The notes under the pieces: generated by a model
Database searches by the model: none
The model's input: the letters and a program-made list of their open reading frames with translations, nothing else
Told to the model about the DNA's origin: nothing
Position numbers and translations under genes: made by a program
Shown here: positions 1,047-26,958 of the stretch, piece after piece
How the letters are laid out: each line of letters opens with the position of its first letter
How positions within the stretch are numbered: position 1 is the stretch's first letter
From: Desulfovibrio sp. Huiquan2017
GTDB lineage: Bacteria; Desulfobacterota; Desulfovibrionia; Desulfovibrionales; Desulfovibrionaceae
Length of the DNA: 64,000 nucleotides
Assembly: GCF_017351175.1 (NCBI RefSeq)
Contig: NZ_JAFMPN010000008.1
Location: forward strand, 124,001-188,000
Reading direction: 5' to 3'

Positions 1047-2051
1047 CTATTGCAAGGAAAATCCGTATTTTACCGGATCGTCTTCATCTATCACATATTG
1101 CCCGTAGCCCGTGATATACGCGCTGCCGGTGATCTCCGGGATGATGGCCTTGTACGGCCCGACGGTCGTCTCCCGCTTGGCTTTGCCGATGAATTTGGTG
1201 TTTATGACGCTTTCATAGACAAAGGGTTCGTCCAAGGCCAGCTCGCCTCTGGCCCACAATGTCGCGACCTTCGCGCAAGTCCCGGTGCCGCAAGGAGAGC
1301 GGTCGATTTGGCCGTCGAAGATGGTGATGTTCTGCATGTCGGTGTCCGGCGATTTGGCCGGGCCGTAGATCTCGCACAAATCGATGGTGGTGATGTGCGG
1401 CAGCTCCGGGTGGATGATCTCGATCTGCTCATTCGCGGCCCGGAGAATGGCCATGCCCGCATCGGTCAGCTTGGACGCATTCTCGGTGCAGATTTCGAGC
1501 CCCAGCTTTTTGGAGTCGATGATGGCGAAGAAGCTTCCGCCGAAAGAGATGTCCATCGTCAATTTCCCATAGCCGGGAACATCGACTTCGGCATCCTTGC
1601 GGTACAGAAAGGCTGGAACATTCTCGAACGACACGCTTTTGGCCTTTCCGCCTTCAACGTTCACGTTCACGCTGACCAGACCGGCCGGGGTCTCCATCTT
1701 CACGGACGTATTCGGTTCCTGGACTTCGATCATGCCGGTTTCGACCATGATGGTGTTGGTGGCGATGGTGCCGTGGCCGCACATGTTGTGATAGCCGTTC
1801 CCGTGCATGAATATCACGCCGAAATCGGCGTCGGGATTACACGGCGAGGTCAAGACCGCGCCATACATGTTGCAGTGCCCTCGCGGCTCCAAGATCAGAG
1901 CCCGATGCAGATCATCATAATGCTCCATGAAGTATGCCTTTTTTTCCGGCATGCTGCTCCCTTTCACTTTCGGGAATCCGCCGACGATCAGCCGCAAGGA
2001 TTCTCCCATCGTGTGGGACTCGACTGTGAATATATGACGATTTGATTTCAT
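1047..2051 (-). CDS. Proline racemase / 4-hydroxyproline 2-epimerase family protein
   Basis: This 334-residue cytosolic enzyme belongs to the proline racemase superfamily, which interconverts L- and D-configured proline or hydroxyproline using two acid/base cysteines. Both are present: Cys91 in NMCGHGTIA and Cys254 in SPCGTGTCAK. This argues against the trans-3-hydroxyproline dehydratase branch, where the first cysteine is replaced. Length fits 4-hydroxyproline epimerase (about 310-335 residues). I chose the ATG at 2049-2051 because GGAGG lies 8 bases upstream; an in-frame ATG at 2066 overlaps that ribosome binding site. It is the last gene of the minus-strand operon, after a TauE-type permease. 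The D-isomer it makes is a logical substrate for the three-subunit dehydrogenase at 3333-6235. Proline versus hydroxyproline cannot be decided from the sequence. Confidence 0.85.
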   Translation of the reverse strand: MKSNRHIFTVESHTMGESLRLIVGGFPKVKGSSMPEKKAYFMEHYDDLHRALILEPRGHCNMYGAVLTSPCNPDADFGVIFMHGNGYHNMCGHGTIATNTIMVETGMIEVQEPNTSVKMETPAGLVSVNVNVEGGKAKSVSFENVPAFLYRKDAEVDVPGYGKLTMDISFGGSFFAIIDSKKLGLEICTENASKLTDAGMAILRAANEQIEIIHPELPHITTIDLCEIYGPAKSPDTDMQNITIFDGQIDRSPCGTGTCAKVATLWARGELALDEPFVYESVINTKFIGKAKRETTVGPYKAIIPEITGSAYITGYGQYVIDEDDPVKYGFSLQ

Positions 2052-2133
2052 GGAAAAAACCTCCATCGTGTGAGTTTATATGTTTTTCATTGAAATGCTT
2101 GGAAGCATGGTTTGCTGCTGTAAAAGCCGGCAA

Positions 2134-3039
2134 TTACGGTGTGTTGCTTTCCGGAATGGCATCGGCGGCCGGGGCGTTCTGGCGCCAGTCCTTGAACATG
2201 CTGTAGATCATGGAGGCGGCAGTGTAGAGAATCACGCCGATGACTACCCATTTCAGTACGAACAGGGGCAGAGACTTGACCAGGAATGCGGCGACGAGCA
2301 CACCGGGAATGCCGGCCATCATGTAGATCAGGGCAACCTTGCGGTCGAGCGCGCCTTCCTTGATGAATTTCAGCGAAGCAATGGGCATGAGAAACGCGCA
2401 GGAGCCCATCATGATGGGGAAGGCCGCCCGGGGGGACATGCCCAGGAAGTAGATGAGCGCCATACATGGCGCGTACAGGCCGATGCCCGCCGTCATCAGA
2501 ATGCCCAGGATGAAATTGCCCACGACGGCGATAACCAGGTTTATCCCGGTCAGTCCGGTGGCTTCGCCGCCGCTCGGCATCCAGCCCATCATGCCCAGGA
2601 ACATCACCACGGCGGTGACGAGCAGGGCAACACCCATGGTCAGGCGGACCTTCTGCACGGAAAAGTGCGAGATGATGGAGGCGCCGAAATACGCGCCCAC
2701 AGAGCTGGAAACCAACATGCTGATCAGCGTCACGGGGTCCACGTCGATGGTCGTGATCAGAATACAGCCGGAAAACACTTCCGGAAGGGAAGTGAACACA
2801 TTCAGCGTTCCCGGAATCTTCTGGTCCTCGATTTGCTTGAAGAACCGCAGCAGGGCCGTGGCGGGGGCGAAGTTGCCTATCCCGAGCGTATCCCCGAACA
2901 TCGTCAAAAACCCGATGGGAGCGACCGCGCCGACGGTTGCTGTACTTTTCACGTGACGATTCGCACGATAGTCCTTCAAAAAGACAAACAGGAAATATGC
3001 ACCAAGAAGCACGAGTAACCCGGTGAGAATTCGAACCAT
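2134..3039 (-). CDS. TauE/SafE-family membrane permease
   Basis: About 301 residues with roughly eight hydrophobic segments in two repeat halves. The glycine-rich pattern (FLTMFGDTLGIGNFAPATAL near the start and FILGILMTAGIGLYAPCMAL in the second half) is that of the TauE/SafE permease family. Members export sulfite, sulfoacetate or other small organic anions, and many have no known substrate. The ATG at 3037-3039 follows GGAGG by 5 bases; a GTG four codons upstream is possible. It lies between the dehydrogenase genes and the racemase gene and may move a pathway substrate or an end product. A large hairpin at 3228-3272 separates it from the upstream genes, so its expression may differ from theirs. 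Confidence 0.7.
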   Translation of the reverse strand: MVRILTGLLVLLGAYFLFVFLKDYRANRHVKSTATVGAVAPIGFLTMFGDTLGIGNFAPATALLRFFKQIEDQKIPGTLNVFTSLPEVFSGCILITTIDVDPVTLISMLVSSSVGAYFGASIISHFSVQKVRLTMGVALLVTAVVMFLGMMGWMPSGGEATGLTGINLVIAVVGNFILGILMTAGIGLYAPCMALIYFLGMSPRAAFPIMMGSCAFLMPIASLKFIKEGALDRKVALIYMMAGIPGVLVAAFLVKSLPLFVLKWVVIGVILYTAASMIYSMFKDWRQNAPAADAIPESNTP

Positions 3040-3227
3040 TTTGCCCTCCACCGTAGCACGGCAAGCTTGAAATCTTTGTTATCTCATGGTCGGAGTCTTC
3101 GGTCGTCCGACGGCCGGAACAATCTCTCACCACGCCATCAGCTCTTGATGTCGCTTCCGATATCGGTTTTCCCCTCCGGAGCGGTCGCCCAAACCACTCC
3201 GAAGATGGCGCTCACGATTGAGCTTCA

Positions 3228-3272
3228 ATGCAGTCCCGGCGGTAGCGCCCGTGCATCCCGCCGGGACTGCAT
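3228..3272 (-). repeat. 15-bp perfect inverted repeat inside the operon
   Basis: Bases 3228-3242 pair with 3258-3272 over a 15-base loop. It lies between the stop of the dehydrogenase alpha gene (3333) and the permease start (3039). There is no following T-run on the minus strand, so it could be a weak terminator, an mRNA-stabilising stem or a processing site. Confidence 0.6.
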
Positions 3273-3332
3273 GTCCCTGACGTCAGGAACTATTTCAATC
3301 AGTTGACAAGGTTATATATCCACAGCTCGCGC

Positions 3333-4718
3333 CTACAGCAGGTCGGACGGGCTGGGCATCTCGATGAGCTCCCCCAAACGGAGCGGGAAGAGAGGTGGTT
3401 GCGCTGTGTACAGCGGCAGATTCTCCAGCGGCATCCCCTGGGCGTCGGCGATCATCTCGACAACGGCCTGGCCGCAGACGCGCCCCTGGCAGGTGCCCAT
3501 GCCCGGCCGGGCCTGGGCCTTCAGGCCGTCGGGCGAATAGCAGCCACCGCGAATTGCTTCGCTCAGGTCCCTGGCCGTCAGTTCTTCGCATCGGCAGACG
3601 ATGGCGTCCGGGTGCGGTTGCAGCATGGCGGGTGTGGGGGCGAAGTATTCGTCCAGGAAAGGCTGTAAAGCCTTGCAGCGCCTGATGGTCCGCAGGAAGG
3701 GCCGAGCCTCCCTGTCGCGTTCCGCCAGGGGCAGGCGGCCGAGTTCGCGGCAGATATCCAAGCCGACAAGGCTGCCTTCGGCACGGGCCGCCAGCGCTCC
3801 GCGGACAGTGACGGTGTCACCGGCCGTGCGCAGGCCCGGCGCGGAGGTCTGGCCCCACATGTCCGCATCCACGTGCCAATAGCGCTGCGTCTGGTCCCAG
3901 GCGTGGCGCAGCCGCGCCAGGCGGGTGATGCGACTTTCGGAGACAACCCCCTCGTGGAGCAGCACCGTGGAGGCGGCCAGGCTTTTGCGTTTGCCGCTGC
4001 GGGTGGCGAAGCTCACGCTCAGACCCTGCCCGCTTTCGCGGATGGACACGTCCTGCGCGCCCAACACGCACTTTTGCCCGAGGAAAGTCTTGGCCGCCAT
4101 GTTCATTCCATGGAGGAAATACCCCGGACGGGCCAGTATCCCGGACGCATGCTTCATGGCGCGCATGGCGTTCCCGAGCCTGCCCGTCAGCAGGACGCCG
4201 GCCACGGGGACCTTGAAGTGGCTCAAGTGCACGGCCGCCTGAAGGATCAGCGGGCCGTTGCCGCACAAGACCACCGGACCTTCGGGCAGGAGGCCTGCCG
4301 ATTTCAGCAGCACGTCCGAAGCACCGGACCCCATGACGCCGGGCAGGGTCCAGCCGGGCAGGGGGACGGGGCGTTCCATGGCGCCGGTGGCCAGCAGTAC
4401 CTGACGCGCCCGGACGAATTGGCTCTTGCCCTGTTGGCTGTAGTACACCCGGTCCGGAGCGATATCCCAGACGTTGGCCCCGGCTTCGAATTGTGCGCCG
4501 CATTGAAGAAAGCGCTTTACGAGCGGAAGGCCGTCGGCATAGTCGCTGCCCAGCTTGCCGGACATGGGAGAGGAACCGACGCTGCGGTAGATCTGCCCTC
4601 CCGGTTCGGTCTGCCGGTCCACCACCAGGGTGGACAGCCCGTGCCCGGCGGTCTCGATGGCGGCGGACATGCCCGCAGGCCCCGCACCGACGATGATCAC
4701 ATCCCAAACCTTACTCAT
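3333..4718 (-). CDS. NAD(P)/FAD-dependent oxidoreductase, alpha subunit of an HcnABC/LhpBEF-like dehydrogenase
   Basis: 461 residues. An N-terminal FAD-binding fold (VIIVGAGPAGMSAA, residues 8-21) is followed by a second nucleotide-binding segment (VVLCGNGPLIL). The C-terminus carries a BFD-like [2Fe-2S] cysteine set: CRCEEL, then GMGTCQGRVCG. This architecture matches the large subunit of hydrogen cyanide synthase, opine oxidase and heteromeric D-hydroxyproline dehydrogenases. Start chosen at the ATG 4716-4718, immediately before the FAD motif; it overlaps the stop of the small [2Fe-2S] subunit by 8 bases, indicating translational coupling. With that subunit and the DAO-family subunit it should form a membrane-linked or soluble complex that oxidizes a cyclic or D-amino acid to its imine. 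The electron acceptor is not evident. Confidence 0.8.
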   Translation of the reverse strand: MSKVWDVIIVGAGPAGMSAAIETAGHGLSTLVVDRQTEPGGQIYRSVGSSPMSGKLGSDYADGLPLVKRFLQCGAQFEAGANVWDIAPDRVYYSQQGKSQFVRARQVLLATGAMERPVPLPGWTLPGVMGSGASDVLLKSAGLLPEGPVVLCGNGPLILQAAVHLSHFKVPVAGVLLTGRLGNAMRAMKHASGILARPGYFLHGMNMAAKTFLGQKCVLGAQDVSIRESGQGLSVSFATRSGKRKSLAASTVLLHEGVVSESRITRLARLRHAWDQTQRYWHVDADMWGQTSAPGLRTAGDTVTVRGALAARAEGSLVGLDICRELGRLPLAERDREARPFLRTIRRCKALQPFLDEYFAPTPAMLQPHPDAIVCRCEELTARDLSEAIRGGCYSPDGLKAQARPGMGTCQGRVCGQAVVEMIADAQGMPLENLPLYTAQPPLFPLRLGELIEMPSPSDLL

Positions 4719-5019
4719 GGCTGTTCTCCTTGTGGAAATCGGGCACGCCGTTCTGGCGGAAGACCTGCATGCCTTCGACAACGGCCGTCAGGCAGGCCTG
4801 TTGATTGGGAACGCCGTCTATCGTCATGAGGCATTCATGGCACACGCCCATCTGACAGTAGGGGCCGCGTTTTTGCCCGCCGTGGGAAGTGCGGGTCCAG
4901 CCGTGGGAGGGGCCCAGGACCGCAGCCGCCACGGTCATTCCCTCTTCGACTTCAAGGGGCTGCCCTTCGAAGTATATTGTGATGGTTTTTCCCTTGGACT
5001 CACTGACTTTCTTAAACAT
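4711..5019 (-). CDS. [2Fe-2S] small subunit of the HcnABC/LhpBEF-like dehydrogenase
   Basis: A 102-residue protein with a single [2Fe-2S] ferredoxin-like domain. The ligand cysteines are spaced C-x4-C-x2-C-x11-C (YCQMGVCHEC ... QQAC), as in HcnA and the gamma subunits of heteromeric amino-acid dehydrogenases. The ATG at 5017-5019 is preceded by AGGAGG at 6 bases; longer in-frame starts would run into the upstream gene. The gene begins 10 bases after the DAO-type subunit stops and overlaps the alpha subunit gene, so the three are co-translated. It should relay electrons between the flavins of the two larger subunits. Confidence 0.8.
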   Translation of the reverse strand: MFKKVSESKGKTITIYFEGQPLEVEEGMTVAAAVLGPSHGWTRTSHGGQKRGPYCQMGVCHECLMTIDGVPNQQACLTAVVEGMQVFRQNGVPDFHKENSHE

Positions 5020-5029
5020 TTGCTTCCTC

Positions 5030-6235
5030 CTACGCCGACGTTTCCCCGACGGGCAACGCCGGAGGGTTGAAGCCAAAACGATCAATGCTCATGTAGCTGG
5101 TGTCGATGAACGGCGTTTCGCCGCGAACGAGTTCCGACATGATCTTGCCCGTGATCAGCGAGAGGCTGATGCCGAGGCCCTCATGGCCTGCCCCGACGAA
5201 CAGGCCCGGGACATGGGTTGTGGAAATGATGGGCAATTCATCCGAAGTCGCGGGGCGCACACCGGCGTAACAACGCAGGAGACGCATGTCCGACAGGGTC
5301 GGGAAGAAGTGATTTCCGCGCTCGGCCACGGCCCGCATGACCGCGGGATGGGGGCGGATGTCCATACCCACGAAGCGGCGGCTGCTGCCGACCAGCACCG
5401 TACCCGCCGAGGACGGCTCGATGACGAAGGCCACACCGAATTTGTCCATGTCGGGAGTCACGTTTTCACGCTTCAGGCCGTGCTTGGTCAGCAGGTAGCC
5501 GTATTCCACGTATGCCTTGCTCAGCAGGCCCTTGACCCGCTCGGTGACCAGGATGTGGCCCTGGCGCGGGCGGATGGGGATGTTCACGCCCAGCATGGCC
5601 CCCAGTTGCGGGGTCCACACGCCGGAGGCGAGGATGACGTTTTTGGTGGCGATAAAGCCCTTGTCGGTCTCAACGCCGCTAACCCGGCCATTCTCCGTGC
5701 GCAGGCTCGTGACCTGCGTGCGGGACAGGATGGTCGCGCCGTTGGCCTCGGCGTGTTTGGCCAGGCCAAAGCAGAGGCGCATGGGATTCAGGGTACAGTC
5801 GTTGTTGAAGTTCAGGCAGGCGAGGACCTTGTCGCCGATATTGGGTTCGCGGTGGCGCAACTCGTCCCGGTCCCAAAGGGTGACGTCGTATCCCTCTTTC
5901 TTTTTGCCTTCGTAGTTTTCCTTGACCGTTTCGAGGTGGCTTTCATCGTCCACCAACAGGCCGATGCCCTCGGGGGTGAATTCGAAATCCACCGGCAGGA
6001 ATTTCTGGGCCTCGTAAAACAGGTTCTGCCCTGTTTTGCAGAATACGCTGTAGTCGCCGGGAGGCGTGTCATAGGTGACCACGTGCCCTTCGCATCGACG
6101 GCTGGTGCCCCAGGCGAATTCGCCGCGTTCCACCAACGTCACGTCCACCCCGCCCATGGCGAGGTAACAGGCGACAGCCGTTCCAACGGCCCCGCCACCG
6201 ATGACGACGGCTCCGGCTGTTCGTTTGCTGCTCAT
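5030..6235 (-). CDS. DAO-family FAD-dependent amino-acid dehydrogenase, catalytic subunit
   Basis: 401 residues of the D-amino-acid oxidase (DadA/ThiO/sarcosine oxidase) fold. The N-terminal dinucleotide motif is AVVIGGGAVGTAVACYLA and the C-terminal FAD-contacting segment is GLFVGAGHEGLGISLSLITG. This is the catalytic subunit type (HcnC, LhpB) that oxidizes an amino acid at C-alpha to an imine. Next to a proline racemase-family enzyme, D-proline or cis-4-hydroxy-D-proline is the best-supported substrate, giving a delta-1-pyrroline-2-carboxylate. It heads the three dehydrogenase genes; 167 bases separate it from the MFS gene upstream. Family assignment is firm, substrate is inferred from context. 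Confidence 0.85.
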   Translation of the reverse strand: MSSKRTAGAVVIGGGAVGTAVACYLAMGGVDVTLVERGEFAWGTSRRCEGHVVTYDTPPGDYSVFCKTGQNLFYEAQKFLPVDFEFTPEGIGLLVDDESHLETVKENYEGKKKEGYDVTLWDRDELRHREPNIGDKVLACLNFNNDCTLNPMRLCFGLAKHAEANGATILSRTQVTSLRTENGRVSGVETDKGFIATKNVILASGVWTPQLGAMLGVNIPIRPRQGHILVTERVKGLLSKAYVEYGYLLTKHGLKRENVTPDMDKFGVAFVIEPSSAGTVLVGSSRRFVGMDIRPHPAVMRAVAERGNHFFPTLSDMRLLRCYAGVRPATSDELPIISTTHVPGLFVGAGHEGLGISLSLITGKIMSELVRGETPFIDTSYMSIDRFGFNPPALPVGETSA

Positions 6236-6402
6236 GTCATTTCTCCTTACTACCCTGTGGTCTTCGGGGAATCCGCAACACGCCCCAGGCCCAGAGATGC
6301 TTATGAATTTTTAATGGTTGAGATGTCCCATCTGGCTTCGGAATTTTCCCGGCCGCGCACGGCCCGTCAAACATCCAAGGGGACGAGGCATTGCCGTATC
6401 CG

Positions 6403-7791
6403 CTAGCGCGCTTCGGAGGCCGAAGAGCTCGGTTCAAGGTAGACGCTTGCTCCCGGCTCCGGGCAACAGGCAGCCTCCTCCAGCGTACAGTGCTTGGTTT
6501 CGGGAGCCATCTTCAGGCTCACTAGGTAGCCGATTGCCGTAATGAACGCCGCCGCCCATACCGTTCCGCTGATACCCAGCCTTTCGAGGGACAAAGGCAC
6601 GAAATAGGTGCCGATGGCCGCCCCTATCCGGCTCAAGGATGAGGCCAGGCCGACGGCCGAGGCCCGGATCTCCGTCGGAAACAGCTCGTTGGGATAAACG
6701 AACTGCAAATTCTGGGAACATCCCGTGGCCAGGGCGTAAACCGAGAACAGCAACAGGATGAGGAAGGGGTTGGCGTTCGTGAAAAGGCCGAGGAGGAATA
6801 AGGCCACGGCCGACCAGAAGAAACTGTGCAGCAGGGAGGAGCGGCGGCCCATCTTGTTGATGAGCGGCAGGGGGAGGAGACACCCGAACATGAAGATGAC
6901 GGTGGTGACCACCGAGCTCATGGTGCCGTGGTCGTGGTTGAGCCCCAGGGCAGCCAGGATCTTCGGCGCAAAGGCGTATACCGAGTACATCGGCAGGATC
7001 GCGCACGTCCAAAAGACGGCGATGAACAGCATGCGGGTGCCGTAGCCCGACTTGAACAGTTGCCGGACGCTGGCGGTCTTGGTCGATACGTCCATCGACT
7101 TGATCGTTTTCAAGGGAACAGTGGCGTCATACACCAGCTTGAACACCGCGCGGGCCTCTTCATAACGCTGCTGCTTGATGAGCCAGCGGGGTGATTCAGG
7201 GGTATGCCTCCGCATGAACAGGAACAGCGTCGCGGGAAGCGCCGCGCTGGCGAGCATCCAGCGCCACGCGTCGGGGCTGTAGGGCAGCATGATGCTTCCG
7301 ACAACGTAGGCGACAGTCACGCCGAAGGCCCACATGACCACGAGTCCGCCGATGAAGGGACCGCGATATTTCTTCGGGGTGAACTCGGCCATGAGCGCCG
7401 TGGCGATGGGGTAGTCGGCGCCGACGGCGACACCGAGCAGGAACCGGATGACGAAGAGATAAAAGGGCGTTTCGGCCCAGAACTGGAGAACCGAACAAAG
7501 GCCGAGCGCGATCAGGTCGAGGGTATACAGCAACTGGCGGCCGTATTTGTCCGTCACCCAGCCGCCGGTGAAGCCTCCCAGAAACATGCCCGCCATGGTG
7601 GACGCCCCGAGCATCCCTTCCCAAAAGACCGACAGGTTCATGTACGGGGTTATTTGCACCAGGGCGATGCCGATCATGCCCATCACATATCCATCCAGGA
7701 ACGGTCCCCCCGACGAATAAAAGGCCAGGCGCTTGTGAAAACTGTTCAGAGGCGCATTGTCGCAAAGTTCGGTTAATGATCCACAGCCCAT
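6403..7791 (-). CDS. Major facilitator superfamily transporter (sugar/aromatic acid:H+ symporter type)
   Basis: 462 residues with about twelve hydrophobic segments. The loop 2-3 signature GGWVTDKYGRQLLY (D and GR conserved) and a partial repeat in the second half (NKMGRRSSLLHS) identify an MFS proton symporter of the metabolite:H+ type. The ATG at 7789-7791 follows GGAGGGA by about 7 bases; an in-frame ATG five codons earlier overlaps that site. Context suggests it imports the amino acid or betaine-like substrate degraded by this operon. The substrate cannot be read from the sequence. Confidence 0.8.
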   Translation of the reverse strand: MGCGSLTELCDNAPLNSFHKRLAFYSSGGPFLDGYVMGMIGIALVQITPYMNLSVFWEGMLGASTMAGMFLGGFTGGWVTDKYGRQLLYTLDLIALGLCSVLQFWAETPFYLFVIRFLLGVAVGADYPIATALMAEFTPKKYRGPFIGGLVVMWAFGVTVAYVVGSIMLPYSPDAWRWMLASAALPATLFLFMRRHTPESPRWLIKQQRYEEARAVFKLVYDATVPLKTIKSMDVSTKTASVRQLFKSGYGTRMLFIAVFWTCAILPMYSVYAFAPKILAALGLNHDHGTMSSVVTTVIFMFGCLLPLPLINKMGRRSSLLHSFFWSAVALFLLGLFTNANPFLILLLFSVYALATGCSQNLQFVYPNELFPTEIRASAVGLASSLSRIGAAIGTYFVPLSLERLGISGTVWAAAFITAIGYLVSLKMAPETKHCTLEEAACCPEPGASVYLEPSSSASEAR

Positions 7792-7930
7792 CTCTCTTCC
7801 CTCCATAAACTTGGTAATTATCCGCGCAGTTCGACTGCTGCGTGAGTCTGCTTCCGCTTGCGAGAGTCTGTTTTCCTCGCGGCATGACTCATCTGAAATC
7901 TTGATCTCCCAGTTTTGAGTGCAATGGGGG

Positions 7931-8000
7931 GGCGGGTGGTGGCTGAACGCTTCCGAATCGTTCAGAATCGGGGGCTAAGACGAGCAGCCCGCCACCCGCC
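7931..8000 (-). terminator. Nested hairpin between ridA and the MFS gene
   Basis: Outer arms GGCGGGTGG (7931-7939) and CCACCCGCC (7992-8000) enclose a second stem TGAACG/CGTTCA (starting 7944 and 7958). No strong T-run follows on the minus strand. It may terminate or attenuate transcription between the enzyme genes and the transporter, or stabilise the upstream mRNA. Confidence 0.45.
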
Positions 8001-8011
8001 GAAGGCGTTGG

Positions 8012-8386
8012 TTAAGAGAATTCTGCGGTAAACTCCATTTCGATGAGCGCCCCCTGGGCGAGGCGGCTCACTTCGACGGTGGCGCGCGCCGGTTTGTGAG
8101 CGCCCATGTACTTCTTGTAGACTTCGTTGTAGCCCGCGAAATCATCCCAATTGGTGAGGTACACGGAGGCCCGAACCACGCTCGTCATATCCAGCCCGGC
8201 GGAGTCCAGGAGGGATTTGAGATTCTGCATGGCTTGCTCGGTCTGCTCGGTGATGTTCGATCCCACCAACTCACCGGTTTTCCCGAAAGGTCCCTGGCCG
8301 GCAAGAAAGAGCAGGTTGCCGCTTCGGATGGCGTCGGTATAGTGACCCAGAGGAGCCGGGCCATTTTTATCGTTGATGAATTCCAT
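8012..8386 (-). CDS. ridA: RidA/YjgF family enamine/imine deaminase
   Basis: 124 residues, the usual RidA length. The active-site arginine lies in PARATVEVSRL (Arg101, equivalent to Arg105 of E. coli RidA) and the catalytic-pocket glutamate in LIEMEF (Glu116). RidA trimers hydrolyse reactive 2-imino acids to 2-oxoacids and ammonia. Here the gene sits between a 2-oxoacid oxidoreductase/acyl-CoA synthetase block and an imine-producing dehydrogenase. It therefore probably has a dedicated role in releasing the nitrogen in this pathway, not just housekeeping. Strong hairpins flank it on both sides. Confidence 0.9.
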   Translation of the reverse strand: MEFINDKNGPAPLGHYTDAIRSGNLLFLAGQGPFGKTGELVGSNITEQTEQAMQNLKSLLDSAGLDMTSVVRASVYLTNWDDFAGYNEVYKKYMGAHKPARATVEVSRLAQGALIEMEFTAEFS

Positions 8387-8424
8387 AATGATTCCTCCAG
8401 GGTAAGAGTTGGCAATTCGTTATG

Positions 8425-8462
8425 CACATTCCCCCGGCGGCCGAAACCGCCGGGGGAATGTG
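8425..8462 (-). terminator. 16-bp perfect hairpin after the acyl-CoA synthetase gene
   Basis: Bases 8425-8440 pair perfectly with 8447-8462 across a 6-base loop (CCGAAA). It lies 3 bases past the stop of the acyl-CoA synthetase gene. There is no T-run after the stem on the minus strand. Because the next gene on the same strand starts only about 40 bases on, partial termination or protection of the upstream message is more likely than a full stop. Confidence 0.6.
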
Positions 8463-8465
8463 GTG

Positions 8466-10634
8466 TTATTTGTTTTCCGTGGGATGCAGTACGATCCGTG
8501 CGTCCACGATTTCGATGCCGTTTTCCGTTGCGAACACGGGGTTCAAGTCCACTTCGGCCACATCGGACGACAGTTCGGCGACCATGTAGGATAGACGGCT
8601 GACGCCTTCCTCCAGGGCGGGCACGTTGGCGCCGGACTGGCCGCGGACGCCCGTCAGCATCGGATATCCCTTGATCTCGCGGATCATGCGGCCCGCTTCG
8701 GGGGTGTTCACCGGAGCGACCCGGAAGGACACGTCCTTGAGGACTTCGACGAAAATGCCGCCGAGACCGAACATGACCGAGGGCCCGAAGGTGCTGTCAT
8801 AGCTGCTGCCGATGATGCATTCTATGCCGCCGGGCAGCATGGGGGTCAGCATCACGCCGAAGACGTCGGCGTCGGCCTTGTAGGCCCGGCCGTTGGCGAT
8901 AAGCTGGTTGTAGGCCTCCCGGGCCTTGGCCGTGCTGTCGACATGCAGGATGACGCCGCCGGCGTCGGTCTTGTGCAGGATATCGGGAGAGACAATCTTC
9001 ATGACCACCTTGTCGGCGCCCATCTCGGTGAATAGCTTGGCCGCCTCGTCCGGGCTGGTGGCCAGGAGATGGTTCGGCAGGTCAAAGCCGTATGCGCGCA
9101 GCACTTCGCGGGCTTCGGTCTCCACCAGGTTGATCCGATTCTGGGACCGGACGGTCTTGAAGATGGCGTCGACCTTGGACTTGCGGTCTTCGGGAAGCTG
9201 CGGCGGGGTGGCCGCCAGCTCTTCCTTGATCTTTTCCTGGCGGGAGTTGAAGCCGACCAGGGCGCCCATCGCCCGCATGGCGGAATCAATGGAGCCGTAA
9301 ACCGGGAAGCCGTGCTTGCGGATGTAGGTCAGGCTTTCGGGCTGTTGGGCGTAGTACATGGAGTGCATGAGCACCGGCTTGTCCGAATTGTTCGCCCGCT
9401 CGACCAGGCTCTTGGCCACATCCATCTCCATCTGGCGGAATTCCTCGGAGAAGTCGCAGTAGCCGCCGTAGAGACCGGCGATGACCAGGCCATCGACCTC
9501 GGGATCGGCCAGCAGCACTTCGGCGCAACGGTCGAAGACCCACATGTCGTGCTCAGGCGTGCCCGCGAGATCAACGGGGTTCTTGATCGGGCAATGGGGC
9601 ATGAGGATGGCGCGCAGCTTCTTCTGGGTCTCCTCGGAAAGCACGAAGGCGTCCAGGCCTAGGGGTTCGGCCATGTCCGTGGCCATGACGCCATGGCCGC
9701 CGCCGTCGGTCAGGATGGCGATGCGGTTGCCCTTGGGCTTCTTGCAGCGGGCAAAGGCCTCGCCGACATCCAGGAGTTCCTGCGGCGTCTCGACCCGGAC
9801 GACGCCGGCTTGGTTGAGGGCGGCATCAAAGATCTTCTCGCTGCCGGCCAGGGAGCCCGTGTGCGATGCCGCGGCGCGGGCTCCGGCCTGGCTGCGACCG
9901 ATCTTGATGGCGGAGAGGGGTTTCTTGAGCGTGGCCAGGCGGGCGTTGTGCAGAAAGTTCCGGCCGTCGTCCACGGAGGCGACGCGGAGCCCTTCCATAT
10001 ACATCATGACCACGCGGGTGGCATCGTCCTGGCCCATGTACTCCACGAAGTCCGCAAAGCGCAGGTCCATCTGATTGCCGATGCTGGCCCAGGCGCTGTA
10101 GCCGATGCCCCGAGTTTTGGCGTTGAAGTTGATGTCGATGCCGAAGTTGCCGCTCTGGAGTACCAGACCCATGGGGCCGTCGGCCAGATCGATGGTGCTG
10201 GCGTTGAGGTGGACGGGCGAGCTGAAGATGCCCATGCAGTTGGGACCCTGGATCCGCATGCCGGCCTTTTGGGCGATGGCGACGATCTTTTTTTCCAGTT
10301 CCTTGCCCTCGGGGCCGGTCTCGCCGAAGCCGGTGGCGACCACGACCAGGGCCTTGACACCCTTGTCGGCGCACTCCTGGATGACGGGCAGAATATATTT
10401 GGGGGAAATGCCGACGATGGCCATATCCACGGGACCCGGGACATCGGAAATGCTGGCATAGGGTTTCTTGCCCAGAATATCGGCCGCGGCAGTCCTGGAG
10501 ATGAAGTACAGATCGCCGGTGAACTTGCTGTCGATCAAGCCCTTTGCGGTCCAGTACCCGTATTTTTTCGGATCCGAAGAAGCGCCGATCAGCGCAACGC
10601 TCTTGGGTCGAAAAAGAGGATTCAAATCAGACAT
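8466..10634 (-). CDS. ADP-forming acetate/acyl-CoA synthetase, fused alpha-beta type
   Basis: 722 residues. Domains in order: CoA-binding (about 1-135, SVALIGASSDPKKYGY), succinyl-CoA-ligase-like domains (about 150-460), and a C-terminal ATP-grasp domain (about 490-720). The phosphorylated histidine of the alpha half is His258 in ASHTGSLAG, matching His257 of archaeal ACD; the ATP-grasp half has SPDILHKTDAGGV with its conserved histidine. The enzyme converts acyl-CoA, ADP and phosphate to the free acid, CoA and ATP. It lies directly downstream of a four-subunit 2-oxoacid:ferredoxin oxidoreductase, so the acyl-CoA made there would be cashed in for ATP here. Acyl specificity is not predictable. 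Confidence 0.9.
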   Translation of the reverse strand: MSDLNPLFRPKSVALIGASSDPKKYGYWTAKGLIDSKFTGDLYFISRTAAADILGKKPYASISDVPGPVDMAIVGISPKYILPVIQECADKGVKALVVVATGFGETGPEGKELEKKIVAIAQKAGMRIQGPNCMGIFSSPVHLNASTIDLADGPMGLVLQSGNFGIDINFNAKTRGIGYSAWASIGNQMDLRFADFVEYMGQDDATRVVMMYMEGLRVASVDDGRNFLHNARLATLKKPLSAIKIGRSQAGARAAASHTGSLAGSEKIFDAALNQAGVVRVETPQELLDVGEAFARCKKPKGNRIAILTDGGGHGVMATDMAEPLGLDAFVLSEETQKKLRAILMPHCPIKNPVDLAGTPEHDMWVFDRCAEVLLADPEVDGLVIAGLYGGYCDFSEEFRQMEMDVAKSLVERANNSDKPVLMHSMYYAQQPESLTYIRKHGFPVYGSIDSAMRAMGALVGFNSRQEKIKEELAATPPQLPEDRKSKVDAIFKTVRSQNRINLVETEAREVLRAYGFDLPNHLLATSPDEAAKLFTEMGADKVVMKIVSPDILHKTDAGGVILHVDSTAKAREAYNQLIANGRAYKADADVFGVMLTPMLPGGIECIIGSSYDSTFGPSVMFGLGGIFVEVLKDVSFRVAPVNTPEAGRMIREIKGYPMLTGVRGQSGANVPALEEGVSRLSYMVAELSSDVAEVDLNPVFATENGIEIVDARIVLHPTENK

Positions 10635-10659
10635 TTTCTATTTTCCTTGTTCCAAAGTA

Positions 10660-10881
10660 TTAGTTTGCTTCGATGACGCCGATGGCGACATCGGGGCAGA
10701 CAATCCGGCAGACATTGCACTTGATGCATTTCTCGGGAGCCACCTGGATCACGTAGGCATAGCCCTGGGGGTTCAAATCGGAACCGATGGCGAGGGTTTG
10801 CTTGGGACACGCCTCGACACACAGGCCGCAAGACTTGCAACGCACGCTCTCGATCAAATGCAGTTTCATTTTCTTGCTCAT
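10660..10881 (-). CDS. 2x[4Fe-4S] ferredoxin subunit of 2-oxoacid:ferredoxin oxidoreductase
   Basis: 73 residues with two complete clusters, CKSCGLCVEACPK and CIKCNVCRIVCPD. This is the delta (PorD/VorD/KorD-like) subunit of heterotetrameric 2-oxoacid:ferredoxin oxidoreductases. The ATG at 10879-10881 overlaps the gamma gene's stop as ATGA and has AGGAGG 7 bases upstream; a TTG two codons earlier is less likely. It takes electrons from the thiamine-diphosphate centre and passes them to soluble ferredoxin. Confidence 0.85.
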   Translation of the reverse strand: MSKKMKLHLIESVRCKSCGLCVEACPKQTLAIGSDLNPQGYAYVIQVAPEKCIKCNVCRIVCPDVAIGVIEAN

Positions 10882-11432
10882 TTGCAAGCCTCCTTTTCCG
10901 CGGCTTCGATGCCGGCGTTCAGGGCCTGGATGTTCACTTCGAGTAACGCGGCCTTTTTCTTGCCCATGGCGTCGGTAAGCGCGGCAACGACGGCGTCGGT
11001 GCCCAGCATGCCGACGGTCTTGACCACGGCGCCCAGCATGATGATGTTGGCCACCCGCACATTGCCCATGTCCTGAGCCATCTCGGAAACCGGCAGGCGC
11101 ACTTGTGTCACCTCGGGCCGGGTCAGTTCCTTCTTGACCATGGAGCTGTTCACGAACAGCGTGCCGCCGTCCTTCATGCCTTCCAAGGTGGCCTGGTAGA
11201 TGCTTTCGCTCATGGCCACGCCGATATCCGCGTCGGATTCGACAATGGGATTGCCGATGGGGGTATCGGAAAGGACGACGAAGCCCGTGGAATCACCACC
11301 GCGCTGCTCGACCCCGTAGGTCTGGGTCATGACAACCTGCTTGTTTTCCTTGATGCCCGCGTAGCAAGTGAGCTTCGCCATCAGAGCAGCCCCCTGGCCG
11401 CCGGAACCTGAAAATGCACACTTATACTTCAT
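10878..11432 (-). CDS. 2-oxoacid:ferredoxin oxidoreductase, gamma subunit
   Basis: 184 residues of the pyruvate/ketoisovalerate oxidoreductase gamma domain. The N-terminus CAFSGSGGQGAALMAKLTCY is the GxGGQG signature that contacts CoA, and a conserved QTYGVEQRGGDS segment follows. Start chosen at the ATG 11430-11432, with GGAG about 8 bases upstream; it overlaps the beta gene by 11 bases. Together with the alpha, beta and ferredoxin subunits it forms the enzyme that decarboxylates a 2-oxoacid oxidatively to acyl-CoA. Confidence 0.85.
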   Translation of the reverse strand: MKYKCAFSGSGGQGAALMAKLTCYAGIKENKQVVMTQTYGVEQRGGDSTGFVVLSDTPIGNPIVESDADIGVAMSESIYQATLEGMKDGGTLFVNSSMVKKELTRPEVTQVRLPVSEMAQDMGNVRVANIIMLGAVVKTVGMLGTDAVVAALTDAMGKKKAALLEVNIQALNAGIEAAEKEACK

Positions 11433-12183
11433 CGCTTTTCTCCAATTCATTTTTGAAAACTTGAGGTTTGAAGTAGCTGAGGGTTTCTTTGGCGGCGTAG
11501 GCGTAGGCGTCGGGCACCGACAGATGGAGCCCGGTCGGACAGGGCGAGATGACTTCCACGAAGGCGAAGCCCAGGCCCTTGACCTGACATTCGAAGGCGT
11601 TGCGGATGCTCTTGGCGGCCCGGTTGATGCTCTTCACGTCGACGACGGTTTCCCGGGCGAGGTAGGCGACGCCTTTCATTGCCCGCATCATCTCCGGCAC
11701 CAGCAGCGGATAGCCGTGGATATGGACGTCGCGTCCCTTGGTCGTGGTGGTGGTCACCTGTCCGGGGATGGTCGTGGGAGACATCTGTCCGCCGGTCATG
11801 CCGAACACGGAGTTGTTGACCATGATGCAGGTGATGGGCATGCCGCGGTTGGCCGCATGCATGATTTCATGCAGGCCGATGGCGCTTGTGTCGCCGTCGC
11901 CCTGGTAGGTGAAAACGACGTGGTCGGGCATGGCGATCTTGTAGCCGATGGCCGTGGCCGGAGCGCGCCCGTGGATGGCCTCGATGGCGTCGACTTCCAG
12001 ATAATGGTGGGAAAAGCCGCCGCAGCCGATGCCGACCACGGACATGGTCTTTTCCCGGATTCCCATGGATTCGATGGTCTCGGCCACCAGGCGGGTGACG
12101 ATGCCGTGCCCGCAACCGGGGCAATAACTGGTGAGCTTGTCGAATTTCAGCGTTTTGCCGTAATAATCTGCTAATGTCTGCAT
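11422..12183 (-). CDS. 2-oxoacid:ferredoxin oxidoreductase, beta subunit (thiamine diphosphate binding)
   Basis: 253 residues. It carries the YCPGCGHG motif near the N-terminus and the thiamine-diphosphate/Mg motif GDGD ... IMVNN (QGDGDTSAIG through NNSVFGMTGGQ). The order and length match VorA/KorB-type beta subunits of 2-oxoisovalerate or 2-oxoglutarate:ferredoxin oxidoreductases. The ATG at 12181-12183 is one base past the alpha stop, with GAGGGAGAG before it. The neighbouring dehydrogenase and RidA suggest a 2-oxoacid derived from an amino acid. Which 2-oxoacid is not decidable here. Confidence 0.88.
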   Translation of the reverse strand: MQTLADYYGKTLKFDKLTSYCPGCGHGIVTRLVAETIESMGIREKTMSVVGIGCGGFSHHYLEVDAIEAIHGRAPATAIGYKIAMPDHVVFTYQGDGDTSAIGLHEIMHAANRGMPITCIMVNNSVFGMTGGQMSPTTIPGQVTTTTTKGRDVHIHGYPLLVPEMMRAMKGVAYLARETVVDVKSINRAAKSIRNAFECQVKGLGFAFVEVISPCPTGLHLSVPDAYAYAAKETLSYFKPQVFKNELEKSDEV

Positions 12184-12184
12184 G

Positions 12185-13255
12185 CTACTCTCCCTCAAGC
12201 AGTTTGCTGGCTTCACGGGTCATGTCCGCCAAGGTGCACATGGGGATGTCGCCGCCGGTCTTGCCCAGGAAGTGCACCGGCACTCTCCCGTTTACGGCCA
12301 GGCGCACATCGTCGACCATCTGTCCGTGATTCATTTCCACGACCAGGATCGACTTGACCGAAGCGGGGATGTTCTCGAAGGCCTTGTTGGGGAAGGGCCA
12401 GAGCGTGATGGGACGGATAAAGCCCACGCGCTTGCCCTGCGCCCGAAACGATTCCACCAGGTCCTTGCACATGCGGCCGTGGATGCCGAAGGCGACGACC
12501 AACACTTCGGCGTCGTCCACTTCCTCCTGCTCCCACATCTGCTCTTTTTCCGCGATTTCCGCATACTTGCGGCGCATGCGTTCGTTCATCTCGTAGCCCT
12601 GCTCATGCGTGTAGCTGCCGGTCAGGAGGAAACGCTTGGGATGATCCGCCGTGCCGGTGTAGGCCCAATCCGAGGTGTCGAAGTCCGCCGTGTAGTCGTA
12701 CGGCTCGTCGAAAGTCGTCGTTTCGGTCATCTGGCAGGTGACGCCGTCAACCACGAAAAGGACCGGGTTGCGGTAGGTCAGCGCCAGCTTGATGCCCTGG
12801 GGCATGAGTTCGGCGATTTCCTGCCCGCATGAGGGGGCGAGTACGATGACGCGGTAGTCGCCATGCCCGCCGCCGCGGGTCGCCTGGAAATAGGTGCTTT
12901 GCGCACCGATGATGTCACCGTCGCCGGGGCCGACGCGCATGGCGTCGAGCATGATACAGGGCAGTTCGCCCGCCGCCATGAAGCCGATGGCTTCCTGCAT
13001 CAGCGTCATGCCCGGTCCCGAAGAGGACGTGGCGCCCAGTTTGCCTGCACAGGCGTAGCCCGCCAGCGCGTTGGATACCGCCAGTTCGCTTTCCATCTGC
13101 ACCATGCGGCCGCCGACTTCGGGCAACATCCTGGACGTATATTTCATGACGTCCGTCGCCGGAGTAATCGGATAGGCAAAGTGGCAACGTATCCCGCAGC
13201 GAATCATGCTTTCGGCGAACGCTTCCGTGTTTTTCAAAAACAATGTTTCTTTCAT
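12185..13255 (-). CDS. 2-oxoacid:ferredoxin oxidoreductase, alpha subunit (VorB/KorA type)
   Basis: 356 residues. The N-terminal pyrimidine-binding domain contains HFAYPITPATDVMKY and MESELAVSNALAGYACAG; GATSSSGPGMTLMQEA is the conserved SGPG block. A C-terminal transketolase-like domain ends with VVEMNHGQMVDDVR. The length and the alpha-beta-gamma-ferredoxin order point to the VorB/KorA branch, not PFOR. It is the first gene of the minus-strand amino-acid operon. Its upstream region carries a promoter-like sequence and a motif repeated near the divergent IclR regulator gene. Confidence 0.88.
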   Translation of the reverse strand: MKETLFLKNTEAFAESMIRCGIRCHFAYPITPATDVMKYTSRMLPEVGGRMVQMESELAVSNALAGYACAGKLGATSSSGPGMTLMQEAIGFMAAGELPCIMLDAMRVGPGDGDIIGAQSTYFQATRGGGHGDYRVIVLAPSCGQEIAELMPQGIKLALTYRNPVLFVVDGVTCQMTETTTFDEPYDYTADFDTSDWAYTGTADHPKRFLLTGSYTHEQGYEMNERMRRKYAEIAEKEQMWEQEEVDDAEVLVVAFGIHGRMCKDLVESFRAQGKRVGFIRPITLWPFPNKAFENIPASVKSILVVEMNHGQMVDDVRLAVNGRVPVHFLGKTGGDIPMCTLADMTREASKLLEGE

Positions 13256-13325: not shown

Positions 13326-13338
13326 GGTATGTCGTACC
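13326..13338. promoter_or_regulatory. Candidate operator copy 1 (GGTATGTCGTACC)
   Basis: A GGTA-N5-TACC dyad about 71 bases upstream of the operon's first gene and just downstream of the putative -10. It shares its sequence with two more copies in the same intergenic region, one beside the regulator gene. The position fits a repressor site. Confidence 0.5.
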
Positions 13339-13548: not shown

Positions 13549-13565
13549 ACGGTATAGCGTACCGT
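13549..13565. promoter_or_regulatory. Candidate operator copy 2 (6+5+6 palindrome)
   Basis: ACGGTATAGCGTACCGT is a perfect dyad with 6-base arms, the best-formed of the three related motifs. It lies in the middle of the divergent region, suitable for looping between the flanking copies. Confidence 0.5.
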
Positions 13566-13916: not shown

Positions 13917-13921
13917 TTTTC

Positions 13922-13934
13922 GGAATGGCGTACC
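13922..13934. promoter_or_regulatory. Candidate operator copy 3 (GGAATGGCGTACC)
   Basis: Differs from copy 2 (GGTATAGCGTACC) at two positions. It lies directly upstream of the putative -35 of the IclR-type gene, where autoregulation is common in this family. Confidence 0.45.
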
Positions 13935-13940
13935 GCTCTA

Positions 13941-14013: not shown

Positions 14014-14817
14014 GTGGTTAAAACCGAAAAAAAATATTATGAAATCAGTGCGATTACGAAATGTTGTCTGCTGATTGAGAAGCTGTCGACCCAGAAAACC
14101 TGGGAGCTTGCCGATCTCAGTCGGGCTATGGGACTTCCCAAGACCACCGTACACCGCATGTTGCTGACCCTGGTGGACAACGGGTATGTCTATCAGGAAA
14201 AGGAGCGCGGCGAATACAGCCTGACTTTCAAGCTCTTCTCCATGGGGAGCAAGGTGCTGCGCCATTCCAGCGTGGTTGACGTGGCGCGGCCCTATTGCCG
14301 GGAACTCCTCGGTGCCGTGGACGAGACCGTCAACCTCTGCGTCGCCTCGGGCACGGAAATGCTCGTGGTGGACAAGCAGGTCACCTCCCAGATGCTCCGG
14401 CAGGACTCCATCATCGGCAGTTCCTTCCCTCTGTTTCAATCCGCATCCGGCAAGATTTTTCTCGCCTTTGCAGAGGAAGAGGAGGCCGAAAGAGTGCTCA
14501 ATCTCATTCGCGAACAATCCCCGCAACGGGACATAGACCGCGCACTGCCGGGCCTGCGTTCGGAATTGGAGGAAGTGCGTCGGACCGGTCTCGCCTACGA
14601 TTATGAAGAGGTCTTCAAGGGTGTCCGCTGCACGGCGGTGCCCATTTTCGATTTTCAGAACAGGCTCGTGGCCACTCTCAGCGTCTCGGCTCCGACGGTA
14701 CGCCTGAACGAAGTCACCAGCGCCAACATCGAGCGGAACATCATCCGGGCCGCGATCGGCATCTCCCAACGCCTCGGGGCCTCTCCCGCCATCCTGCCCT
14801 TCAATATCGCCGGCTAG
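14014..14817 (+). CDS. IclR-family transcriptional regulator
   Basis: 267 residues. The N-terminal winged helix-turn-helix (about residues 11-65; WELADLSRAMGLPKTTVHRM is the recognition region) is followed by the IclR effector-binding domain (about 85-260; FQSASGKIFLAF and GLAYDYEEVFKGVRCTAVPI are typical). The start is GTG at 14014 with GGAG about 7 bases upstream. IclR proteins bind small metabolites and usually control an adjacent catabolic operon. The gene is divergent from the 12-gene operon and a repeated palindromic motif lies between them, so it is very likely the local regulator. Activator or repressor cannot be told. Confidence 0.88.
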   Translation: MVKTEKKYYEISAITKCCLLIEKLSTQKTWELADLSRAMGLPKTTVHRMLLTLVDNGYVYQEKERGEYSLTFKLFSMGSKVLRHSSVVDVARPYCRELLGAVDETVNLCVASGTEMLVVDKQVTSQMLRQDSIIGSSFPLFQSASGKIFLAFAEEEEAERVLNLIREQSPQRDIDRALPGLRSELEEVRRTGLAYDYEEVFKGVRCTAVPIFDFQNRLVATLSVSAPTVRLNEVTSANIERNIIRAAIGISQRLGASPAILPFNIAG

Positions 14818-17812: not shown

Positions 17813-17863
17813 CTTGTGGGGCGTAATGTTGATTCCACAATCGCCCATACCAAGGAGGACACT

Positions 17864-18529
17864 GTGAGCGAGAGTTCAACCAAAAACGTGCCTGAGTCCA
17901 TGGCGGCGTCTTTTCCCGAAGAACAAAGGGAAAAGGAGCAGCCGCCCGAGAAGAAGCTGGTCGTCAGCCGTAGAAAGATGCTGGGGTTTCTGGGCATCCA
18001 GATAGCCGCGGGAGCTCTGGCCGTCACCGAGGTTGTGGCCGCGCCCAAGAACTTCCGGCCGGAGTGCACCAATCGGGGCATCACCCCCGAGCAGCTTCCC
18101 AACGCCCGGGCCTGGCTCATGACCAACCCGACCACCTGCGTGGGCTGCCGGACCTGCGAGATTGTCTGCTCCCTGTCCCATGACGGCATCTGTCAGCCGA
18201 ACATTGCCCGCATTCACACCGTGTACGATCCCCTGCATTCTCTGAGCAAGCTGTGCGCCATGCCCTATGCGTGCAAGCAGTGCAACATGGCGGACTGTTA
18301 TCTGGCCTGTGAGTACGACGCCCTGGTCCTGGACAAGAAGACCGGGGCCCGGGTCATTGATCCCGAGAAGTGCCAGGCCTGCGGCGAATGTTTGGCGGCC
18401 TGTCCCTGGGACATGGTGGTCCACAACGAGGCCAAGGACACCTACAGCAAGTGCGACCTCTGCGGCGGCGACCCGCAATGCGTGAAGTATTGCCCGGCCG
18501 ACGCGATCAAGTTCATTGAACTGGGATAA
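17864..18529 (+). CDS. Tat-targeted four-cluster ferredoxin (YdhY-like partner of aldehyde oxidoreductase)
   Basis: 221 residues starting at a GTG (17864) with AAGGAGG 5 bases upstream. A twin-arginine motif (SRRKMLGF, about residues 44-51) precedes a hydrophobic segment ending VVAAP, so it is probably exported or membrane-anchored. Cysteine groups CVGCRTCEIVC, CKQCNMADCYLAC, CQACGECLAACPW and CDLCGGDPQCVKYCP would hold four [4Fe-4S] clusters. This resembles YdhY and AOR-associated ferredoxins. The large AOR-family gene follows 24 bases downstream, and this protein most likely carries its electrons. The AOR itself has no visible export signal, which leaves the location of the complex unclear. 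Confidence 0.8.
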   Translation: MSESSTKNVPESMAASFPEEQREKEQPPEKKLVVSRRKMLGFLGIQIAAGALAVTEVVAAPKNFRPECTNRGITPEQLPNARAWLMTNPTTCVGCRTCEIVCSLSHDGICQPNIARIHTVYDPLHSLSKLCAMPYACKQCNMADCYLACEYDALVLDKKTGARVIDPEKCQACGECLAACPWDMVVHNEAKDTYSKCDLCGGDPQCVKYCPADAIKFIELG

Positions 18530-18553
18530 TCCCGTTTGAAAGGAGCATCTACA

Positions 18554-26460: not shown

Positions 26461-26958
26461 ATTATCCCTTTAATTCCCTGGGAAAAACAGGCGTTGAAAG
26501 CCGCTTCGCGGCGAAAATCAAAAGGATTTCGCCTCCGGCGGGCAAGGACTCGCGCCCTTGCATCCCGTTTTTACGCCTTCGGGTTGCCGCCCCGCGTGCT
26601 CCGCTCTCGTCCTGCCGCGTCTTCGCTGAAAGTCGCTTGCCGGCCTCGGCATTCGCTTCTGACTGTACCACACTTCGGCACTGAAAAGCGCTTTCCTGCA
26701 AGATGCCATACGATCAAAAGGATAGATAAAATCAATAGTAAATATTGATATCGTAAATGGATAAATTCAAAAAAACAGGGTCGTTAGGGGATGATTTCCC
26801 TCTTTCTCAGGCGGATATCTTTTCGCGATTTGCCTACTTGCTCAATTTAACACATTGCAATAATTGACTTTTATTTTAAAATTAGACGGAATTATCAGCA
26901 GCGTATTTTTTTAGTTTGCAGCGGCGTGCTCGCCTCTGCCCAACCAAGGAGGCCATCC
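26461..26958. other. Intergenic region upstream of formate dehydrogenase
   Basis: The first 250 bases are GC-rich and non-coding, with small stems such as GCCGC/GCGGC near 26502. The last 250 bases are AT-rich and should hold the formate dehydrogenase promoter. A TTGACT near 26864 is a possible -35, but no -10 is well placed and I do not assign a promoter. Confidence 0.5.

Follow-up and report, generated by a model that had tools for sequence, protein, structure and literature searches.

Which amino acid does a bacterium oxidize when a racemase, a flavoprotein dehydrogenase, and an ATP-forming acyl-CoA synthetase are encoded in one cluster? The question is raised by a 64,000-nucleotide stretch of Desulfovibrio sp. 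Huiquan2017 (contig NZ_JAFMPN010000008.1, positions 124,001 to 188,000; here, the window), which belongs to a genome of 3.97 Mb. Every named gene of the cluster, at positions 1047-13255, lies on the minus strand, as the original prediction had stated and as coordinates and family matches confirm. From position 13255 downward, the genes encode the alpha, beta, gamma, and delta subunits of a 2-oxoacid:ferredoxin oxidoreductase (OFOR), an ADP-forming acyl-CoA synthetase (ACD), RidA, an MFS transporter, the DAO, [2Fe-2S], and Pyr_redox/BFD subunits of a flavin adenine dinucleotide (FAD) dehydrogenase (here, the FAD trimer), a TauE permease, and a racemase. We read the cluster as an IclR-controlled module for amino or imino acid oxidation and, judging from the sequences, give about even chances to the view that it most likely converts L-proline here to 4-aminobutyrate with formation of ATP. 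Proline is the best single guess because the racemase is proline racemase-like, because the dehydrogenase is close to the one in hydroxyproline clusters, and because a variant of the module carries aconitase X (AcnX).

In the proposed route, the transporter would import an alpha-amino or imino acid, and the racemase, in this genome, would convert L-proline to D-proline. The FAD trimer would then oxidize the C-N bond of D-proline, yielding pyrroline-2-carboxylate and delivering electrons to the respiratory chain. The 2-oxoacid would arise through RidA or by spontaneous hydrolysis, pyrroline-2-carboxylate being in equilibrium with 5-amino-2-oxopentanoate. From the latter, OFOR would form 4-aminobutyryl-CoA, CO2, and reduced ferredoxin, and ACD would convert the CoA ester to 4-aminobutyrate and ATP. 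We infer each of these reactions, including substrate, product, and electron acceptor, as well as the binding of the operator by IclR. The original prediction had called the route a fermentation. That label is unproven because the named relatives of the FAD gene, from an uncultured Desulfovibrio metagenome-assembled genome (90%) and Desulfovibrio sp. MES5 (72%), belong to a genus of typical sulfate reducers, and respiration with sulfate is as likely.

Conservation of the core and its operator

Gene content, conservation, the operator, the exchange of entry enzymes, and the racemase residues were observed directly. The survey covered 348 genomes of the order. ACD orthologs (E ≤ 1e-250) are present in 32 of them, own genome included, and the stretches around the match were fetched for all 31 relatives. 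OFOR subunits and RidA accompany ACD in 31 of these 31 relatives, with contigs that stop inside the cluster in G238 and G079, where not all subunits are visible. Because OFOR, ACD, and RidA stay together in this way, the grouping is not due to chance. G045, reached through the FAD protein, is the 33rd module genome, so that about a tenth of the genomes (33/348) have the module. It carries OFOR, RidA, MFS, TauE, and the FAD trimer, and the orthologous ACD is replaced by a distant split pair, in which a group II intron reverse transcriptase/maturase gene stands between the ACD alpha and beta genes (L112, 2147-6830). In view of family functions and conserved company, the general logic of an amino acid oxidation module composed of FAD dehydrogenase, RidA, OFOR, and ACD is well supported. 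This part of the originally predicted chain is supported: its parts stay together in relatives, an operator marks its head, and the cluster of G045 has a split ACD.

A divergent IclR regulator gene and putative operators in the gap between it and OFOR alpha come in addition to the parts first listed. The palindromic motif GGTA-N5-TACC occurs exactly twice in the window, with 0.14 copies expected, and both copies lie between IclR and OFOR alpha; the motif was spotted by eye in the window and then tested, and these two copies are thus not independent evidence. Of 31 loci compared, some of them from near-identical genomes, 21 have one or more exact copies in the 350 bases upstream of OFOR alpha, or 20 of 30 without the window; these loci count the window and G045, whereas L047 and L094 were omitted for too short a flank and G238 for the missing gene. 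There are 32 exact copies in the 10,850 bases upstream of OFOR alpha versus 3 in 637,030 bases elsewhere, all 3 in one locus, which corresponds to an enrichment of about 600-fold. The remaining ten loci have the longer form CGGTA-N5-TACCG with one mismatch (two loci), with two mismatches, which are common by chance (four loci), or not at all (four loci). The longer pattern YGGTAYNNNRTACCR has three copies in the own genome, two of them at this locus, and a reversed control pattern occurs twice; in G141 and G324, copies of the longer form exist elsewhere too, with totals not above those of controls. In G087, the OFOR unit and the MFS-FAD unit are each preceded by one-mismatch copies. Six close-set copies of GGTA-N5-TACC, three past the 350-base zone, are seen upstream of the module in G227 (L101, 5067-6187). 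IclR homologs turn up in the stretches fetched for 29 of the 31 relatives and for G045; the two relatives without one have short contigs. The IclR protein is the probable local regulator and, because of the operator position, may bind GGTA-N5-TACC.

Exchange of putative entry enzymes and the racemase

The putative entry enzymes that would feed the core replace one another. Over the 33 module genomes, the FAD trimer is found beside the module in 5 (the window, G141, G324, G157, and G045), on one strand with it in all cases, and a single-chain DAO enzyme in 26; one genome (G131) has neither, and G238, whose contig ends, was left unjudged. When ten genomes were searched whole (E ≤ 1e-20), the single-chain enzyme was missing in the five trimer genomes and G131 and present in four single-chain genomes. 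A tree built from OFOR alpha and beta of 31 module genomes, with one outgroup, puts all five trimer genomes in a single clade (100/99), with G087 and G334 grouped alongside. Besides its single-chain enzyme, G087 carries an FAD trimer in a separate hydroxyproline cluster. Matches to the catalytic FAD subunit (E ≤ 1e-120) occur in 14 of the 348 genomes, own included. The single-chain enzyme showed no match to solved structures at E ≤ 1e-8, and many genomes that carry it have a BCCT transporter nearby.

In G131, MFS is followed downstream, on its own strand, by genes for AcnX and its swivel partner, and no FAD entry enzyme of either type is found. Single-chain AcnX (LhpI) dehydrates cis-3-hydroxy-L-proline to pyrroline-2-carboxylate, according to an excerpt of PMC5144071. 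AcnX (E ≤ 1e-30) is present in 12 of the 348 genomes. Five genomes, G131 counted, have an AcnX at least 90% identical to that of G131, and the module is present in every one of them. These are not five independent cases, since the genomes G178 and G197 are nearly identical to each other. AcnX and ACD are separated by about 3 kb in G131, about 14 kb in G178 and G197, and about 20 kb in G168, and they are on different contigs in G172. The G131 variant suggests, without proving it, that the module handles pyrroline-2-carboxylate.

The racemase is accessory and stands outside the conserved chain. The original prediction had made it a step of that chain, but racemase matches (E ≤ 1e-10) occur in 6 of the 33 module genomes, with none in 27, two trimer genomes among the latter. 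The neighborhood comparison that it had proposed, asking whether the genes travel together, thus speaks for the rest of the set and against the racemase. The racemase gene adjoins the module in G000, G141, and G324, and the matches in G317 and G148 are on other contigs. In G087, a different family member, of the Ser/Cys type, stands near the module; it lies next to an MFS gene (L047, 9551-10666) and is divergent from the module and its proC. G181 has three racemase-family genes (L034, L035, and L036), two of which (L034 and L035) are paired with a TauE-family permease without the OFOR module; because TauE-racemase pairs occur without the module, the TauE permease may be an imino acid transporter.

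Racemase residues were compared over 24 relatives' loci (L018 and L027 gave no frame and were dropped) with sites as defined in an excerpt of PMC4364671, sites 4 and 5 being placed, by our reckoning, from their spacing to the catalytic Cys. The window racemase has both catalytic Cys residues, in the motifs MCGH and DRSPCGTG. Its pocket contains Leu at site 4, Phe at site 5, which a one-residue gap adjoins, and Tyr at site 1, compared with Leu, Phe, and Phe in AsProR and with His, Phe, and Ser in the epimerases of five hydroxyproline-type clusters. The same excerpt assigns Phe at sites 1 and 5 and no His at site 4 to proline racemase (ProR), and Ser or Val at site 1 and His at site 4 to the 4-hydroxyproline epimerase (4HypE); the window racemase has neither of the two epimerase features. 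ProR is its best NCBIfam model (506.5 bits, versus 321 for 4HypE), and AsProR is its closest solved relative (7pb3, 392.6 bits). These residues and scores favor an enzyme nearer proline racemase than hydroxyproline epimerase, though Tyr at site 1 would also allow a different substrate. Between the two substrates named at the outset, proline or hydroxyproline, the comparison thus leans to proline over 4-hydroxyproline, and AcnX points to pyrroline-2-carboxylate; neither proves proline.

Known pathways and rival substrates

Judged by titles and the beginnings of abstracts, with subscription papers outside the scope, the literature searched contains no description of this chain of FAD dehydrogenase, RidA, OFOR, and ACD. 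Nearest in logic is the Thermococcales scheme, which, in an excerpt of PMC9986279, runs from an aminotransferase through a 2-oxoacid:ferredoxin oxidoreductase to an NDP-forming acyl-CoA synthetase. Both would lead from a 2-oxoacid via acyl-CoA to the free acid, with reduced ferredoxin and ATP. Unlike in Thermococcales, a flavin dehydrogenase with RidA (or AcnX) would feed OFOR here, and no aminotransferase is found among the cluster genes, to which this search was confined. The excerpt also raises the possibility that Pro, among others, bypasses such a route in T. kodakarensis.

Nearest in the first steps is the bacterial hydroxyproline pathway, which in excerpts of PMC4113996 and PMC5144071 comprises 4HypE, a trimeric or single-chain cis-4-hydroxy-D-proline dehydrogenase, a pyrroline-4-hydroxy-2-carboxylate (Pyr4H2C) deaminase, and an alpha-ketoglutarate semialdehyde (alpha-KGSA) dehydrogenase. 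The two share an epimerase/racemase-family enzyme and a three-subunit FAD dehydrogenase, whereas the cluster has the OFOR-ACD pair in place of deaminase and aldehyde dehydrogenase; the word “ferredoxin” is absent from the text of the hydroxyproline survey (PMC4113996). Hydroxyproline clusters do exist in the order. In four g3 genomes (G065, G087, G097, and G099), an FAD catalytic subunit 70-72% identical to that of the window is accompanied by a DapA-type gene, an aldehyde dehydrogenase, and a HypE-like epimerase. Five more genomes (G186, G278, G299, G338, and G175; 55-62%) have the DapA-type gene and the epimerase, with aldehyde dehydrogenase seen in G186 and G338 and two contigs short. Clusters of this type were noted at L037, L038, L039, L040, L043, L113, L114, and L115, with aldehyde dehydrogenase in L037 to L040, L043, and L115. 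The canonical hydroxyproline route was rejected for the cluster, as the window has no matches to the DapA-type deaminase and aldehyde dehydrogenase of L037. A second DapA-family gene of the genome is 27% identical to that of L037, and its stretch has no aldehyde dehydrogenase or racemase match.

As in Stickland D-proline reduction (ProR/PrdF and PrdAB), a proline racemase would come first; D-proline, however, would be oxidized here and not reduced. A PF09338 (PrdA/PrdB) search of the genome gave no match, and the same search matched no control either. In the excerpts consulted on proline racemase together with ferredoxin oxidoreductase, the racemase appears in reductive (Stickland-type) proline use or near reductase genes.

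Three other explanations were considered. The same module might serve 4-hydroxyproline, with L-hydroxyproline converted via D-hydroxyproline to 4-hydroxypyrroline-2-carboxylate/5-amino-4-hydroxy-2-oxopentanoate and on to 4-amino-3-hydroxybutyrate and ATP. The kinship of the FAD catalytic subunit to the four g3 clusters speaks for this, and Tyr at racemase site 1 could bind the hydroxyl group. We nevertheless consider it quite improbable, given the epimerase residues missing at sites 1 and 4, the far better score as a proline racemase, and the finding that neither the window nor the stretches around the four trimer relatives hold an L037-type deaminase or aldehyde dehydrogenase. A division into two unrelated neighbors, with OFOR-ACD-RidA as one unit and racemase/FAD/TauE as another whose sole role is to make pyrroline-2-carboxylate for reduction to proline or for D-proline removal, would fit the spacing of about 220 bases ahead of the MFS gene, the 16-bp hairpin that lies between the ACD and RidA genes, and the restriction of exact operator copies to the head of the OFOR unit. 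It is very improbable in the face of five trimer genomes out of five in which the trimer shares a strand with the module and the single-chain enzyme is missing, and of the one-mismatch operators that front both units in G087.

A broader module for D- or L- (acyclic) amino acids, in which the racemase would be a passenger feeding one substrate and OFOR a general branched-chain or aliphatic VOR-type enzyme, seems rather unlikely. RidA is known for acyclic imines, and its presence in all 31 relatives would suggest that such an imine suits the module better than a cyclic one. OFOR alpha belongs to the broad VorB subfamily, most module genomes have no racemase match, and 26 use the single-chain FAD enzyme, which matches other models far below cut-off and often has BCCT as a neighbor. 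On the other side, the replacement of any FAD enzyme by AcnX in G131 points to pyrroline, and the TauE-racemase pairs that G181 keeps without the module suggest that the pair serves imino acid use.

Several findings, besides the distribution of RidA, weigh against L-proline as the substrate or against the arguments drawn on for it. The genome contains a frame of 1114 residues that includes a Pro_dh domain and is presumably PutA, as well as another Pro_dh match, so that ordinary proline oxidation is available, and no 4-aminobutyrate utilization gene was recognized among the cluster genes. The window racemase has Tyr and not Phe at site 1, its ProR score of 506.5 bits lies under the PRK13969 cut-off of 556, and two trimer genomes, G157 and G045, lack any racemase match (E ≤ 1e-10). 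Since all trimer genomes fall into a single clade, the FAD type was exchanged once and not five times, and the best NCBIfam models of the single-chain enzyme, pipecolate and aminophosphonate oxidases, are far below cut-off and leave its substrate unassigned. The AcnX of G131 is of the two-subunit type (IIa), and the activity data in the PMC5144071 excerpt concern single-chain AcnX. Seven more genomes have an AcnX at 29-41% identity, with the module only in G045, and in the four other genomes that share the G131-like AcnX, no module gene adjoins it. The longer operator form has no copy anywhere in the G157 genome. Finally, proC is near the module in 14 genomes and in just two of them, G087 and G334, directly adjoins the module's own MFS or IclR gene; G194, G168, and G045 also carry two proC copies, and in g1, proC near the module sits beside an lpxB-like gene. 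In L088 and L096, proC follows a gene that we take to be lpxB-like. Since proC near the module is mostly background, we used it as weak evidence only.

Cluster parts, neighboring genes, and biological meaning

Features of the cluster and of the gap upstream of it are listed with their window coordinates.

Table 1. Window positions of cluster genes, regulator, and putative operators
Feature	Position	Strand	Basis or remark
Proline-racemase-family enzyme, Cys/Cys	1047..2066	-	PF05544, 400 bits
TauE/SafE-family permease	2134..3051	-	PF01925
FAD dehydrogenase, Pyr_redox_2 + BFD subunit	3333..4721	-	PF07992 + PF04324 (Fer2_BFD)
FAD dehydrogenase, [2Fe-2S] subunit, Fer2_4	4711..5025	-	PF13510
FAD dehydrogenase, DAO subunit (catalytic, beta-type)	5030..6235	-	PF01266, 228 bits
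MFS transporter (family-level assignment)	6403..7788	-	PF00083 (Sugar_tr)/PF07690
RidA, 2-iminoacid deaminase family	8012..8386	-	PF01042; TIGR00004 121.1 bits, above cut-off 106.25
ACD, single chain	8466..10634	-	PF13380 (CoA_binding_2), PF13607 (Succ_CoA_lig), PF13549 (ATP-grasp_5), PF19045
OFOR delta, two [4Fe-4S] motifs	10660..10881	-	Open reading frame; Fer4 families (dicluster)
OFOR gamma	10878..11450	-	PF01558, 122.5 bits
OFOR beta, thiamine pyrophosphate (TPP)-binding	11422..12183	-	PF02775 (TPP_enzyme_C); NF008820 and PorB_KorB below their cut-offs
OFOR alpha, VorB-type, PRK07119 subfamily	12185..13255	-	PF01855 (POR_N) + PF17147 (PFOR_II); NF005507 VorB 400.7 bits, cut-off 399
Putative operator GGTA-N5-TACC	13326..13338		About 80 bases upstream of OFOR alpha
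Putative operator GGTA-N5-TACC, second copy	13551..13563		Exact match
Putative operator, third copy, imperfect (one mismatch), nearer IclR	13921..13935		Mismatch search
IclR-family regulator, divergent	14014..14817	+	KdgR/BhcR-like, below cut-offs

OFOR is a four-subunit enzyme, since alpha, TPP-binding beta, gamma, and a delta subunit with two [4Fe-4S] motifs are all present. The single ACD chain combines CoA-binding, Succ_CoA_lig, Ligase-CoA, and ATP-grasp domains (Pfam). Assigning its specificity from NCBIfam was given up; the best match, a 4-hydroxybutyrate-CoA ligase, is far below cut-off, and the domain order of other models differs. DAO, Fer2_4, and Pyr_redox/BFD, encoded side by side, form an LhpBCD-type three-subunit arrangement with orthologs in hydroxyproline clusters, and their families suggest a dehydrogenase of the D-hydroxyproline/D-proline type. 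The hairpin between ACD and RidA (8425-8462; 16 pairs, G+C-rich) has no T run on the cluster strand and is possibly a site of mRNA processing or attenuation.

Near the cluster, at 17816-20701, the window encodes an iron-sulfur protein and an aldehyde:ferredoxin oxidoreductase-like protein, homologs of which (63% and 70%) lie near the module in G194 (L100, 2-2200). Membership of the oxidoreductase (18554-20701) in the pathway is unsupported, with a homolog near the module in L100 (70%) and a distant one in L092 (25-28%). Farther on, at 26926-30003, the alpha subunit of a formate dehydrogenase-like enzyme is encoded without an in-frame stop codon and carries Cys, presumably at the position where relatives commonly have Sec.

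It is possible, though somewhat short of an even chance, that the cluster represents a previously undescribed proline pathway in anaerobic sulfate reducers, leading from D-proline through pyrroline-2-carboxylate/5-amino-2-oxopentanoate and, by a dedicated OFOR, 4-aminobutyryl-CoA to 4-aminobutyrate and ATP, with interchangeable entry by racemase and D-proline dehydrogenase, by a single-chain FAD enzyme, or by cis-3-hydroxyproline dehydratase. If this is true, it would add a further route of proline breakdown, one that links proline or hydroxyproline (collagen, compatible solutes) to ATP and 4-aminobutyrate in anaerobes, and it would widen the OFOR-ACD route to include an amino acid which, as the excerpt of PMC9986279 suggests, may lie outside it in T. 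kodakarensis. Even without an assigned substrate, a conserved, operator-marked module in 33 of 348 genomes is a ready target for experiments.

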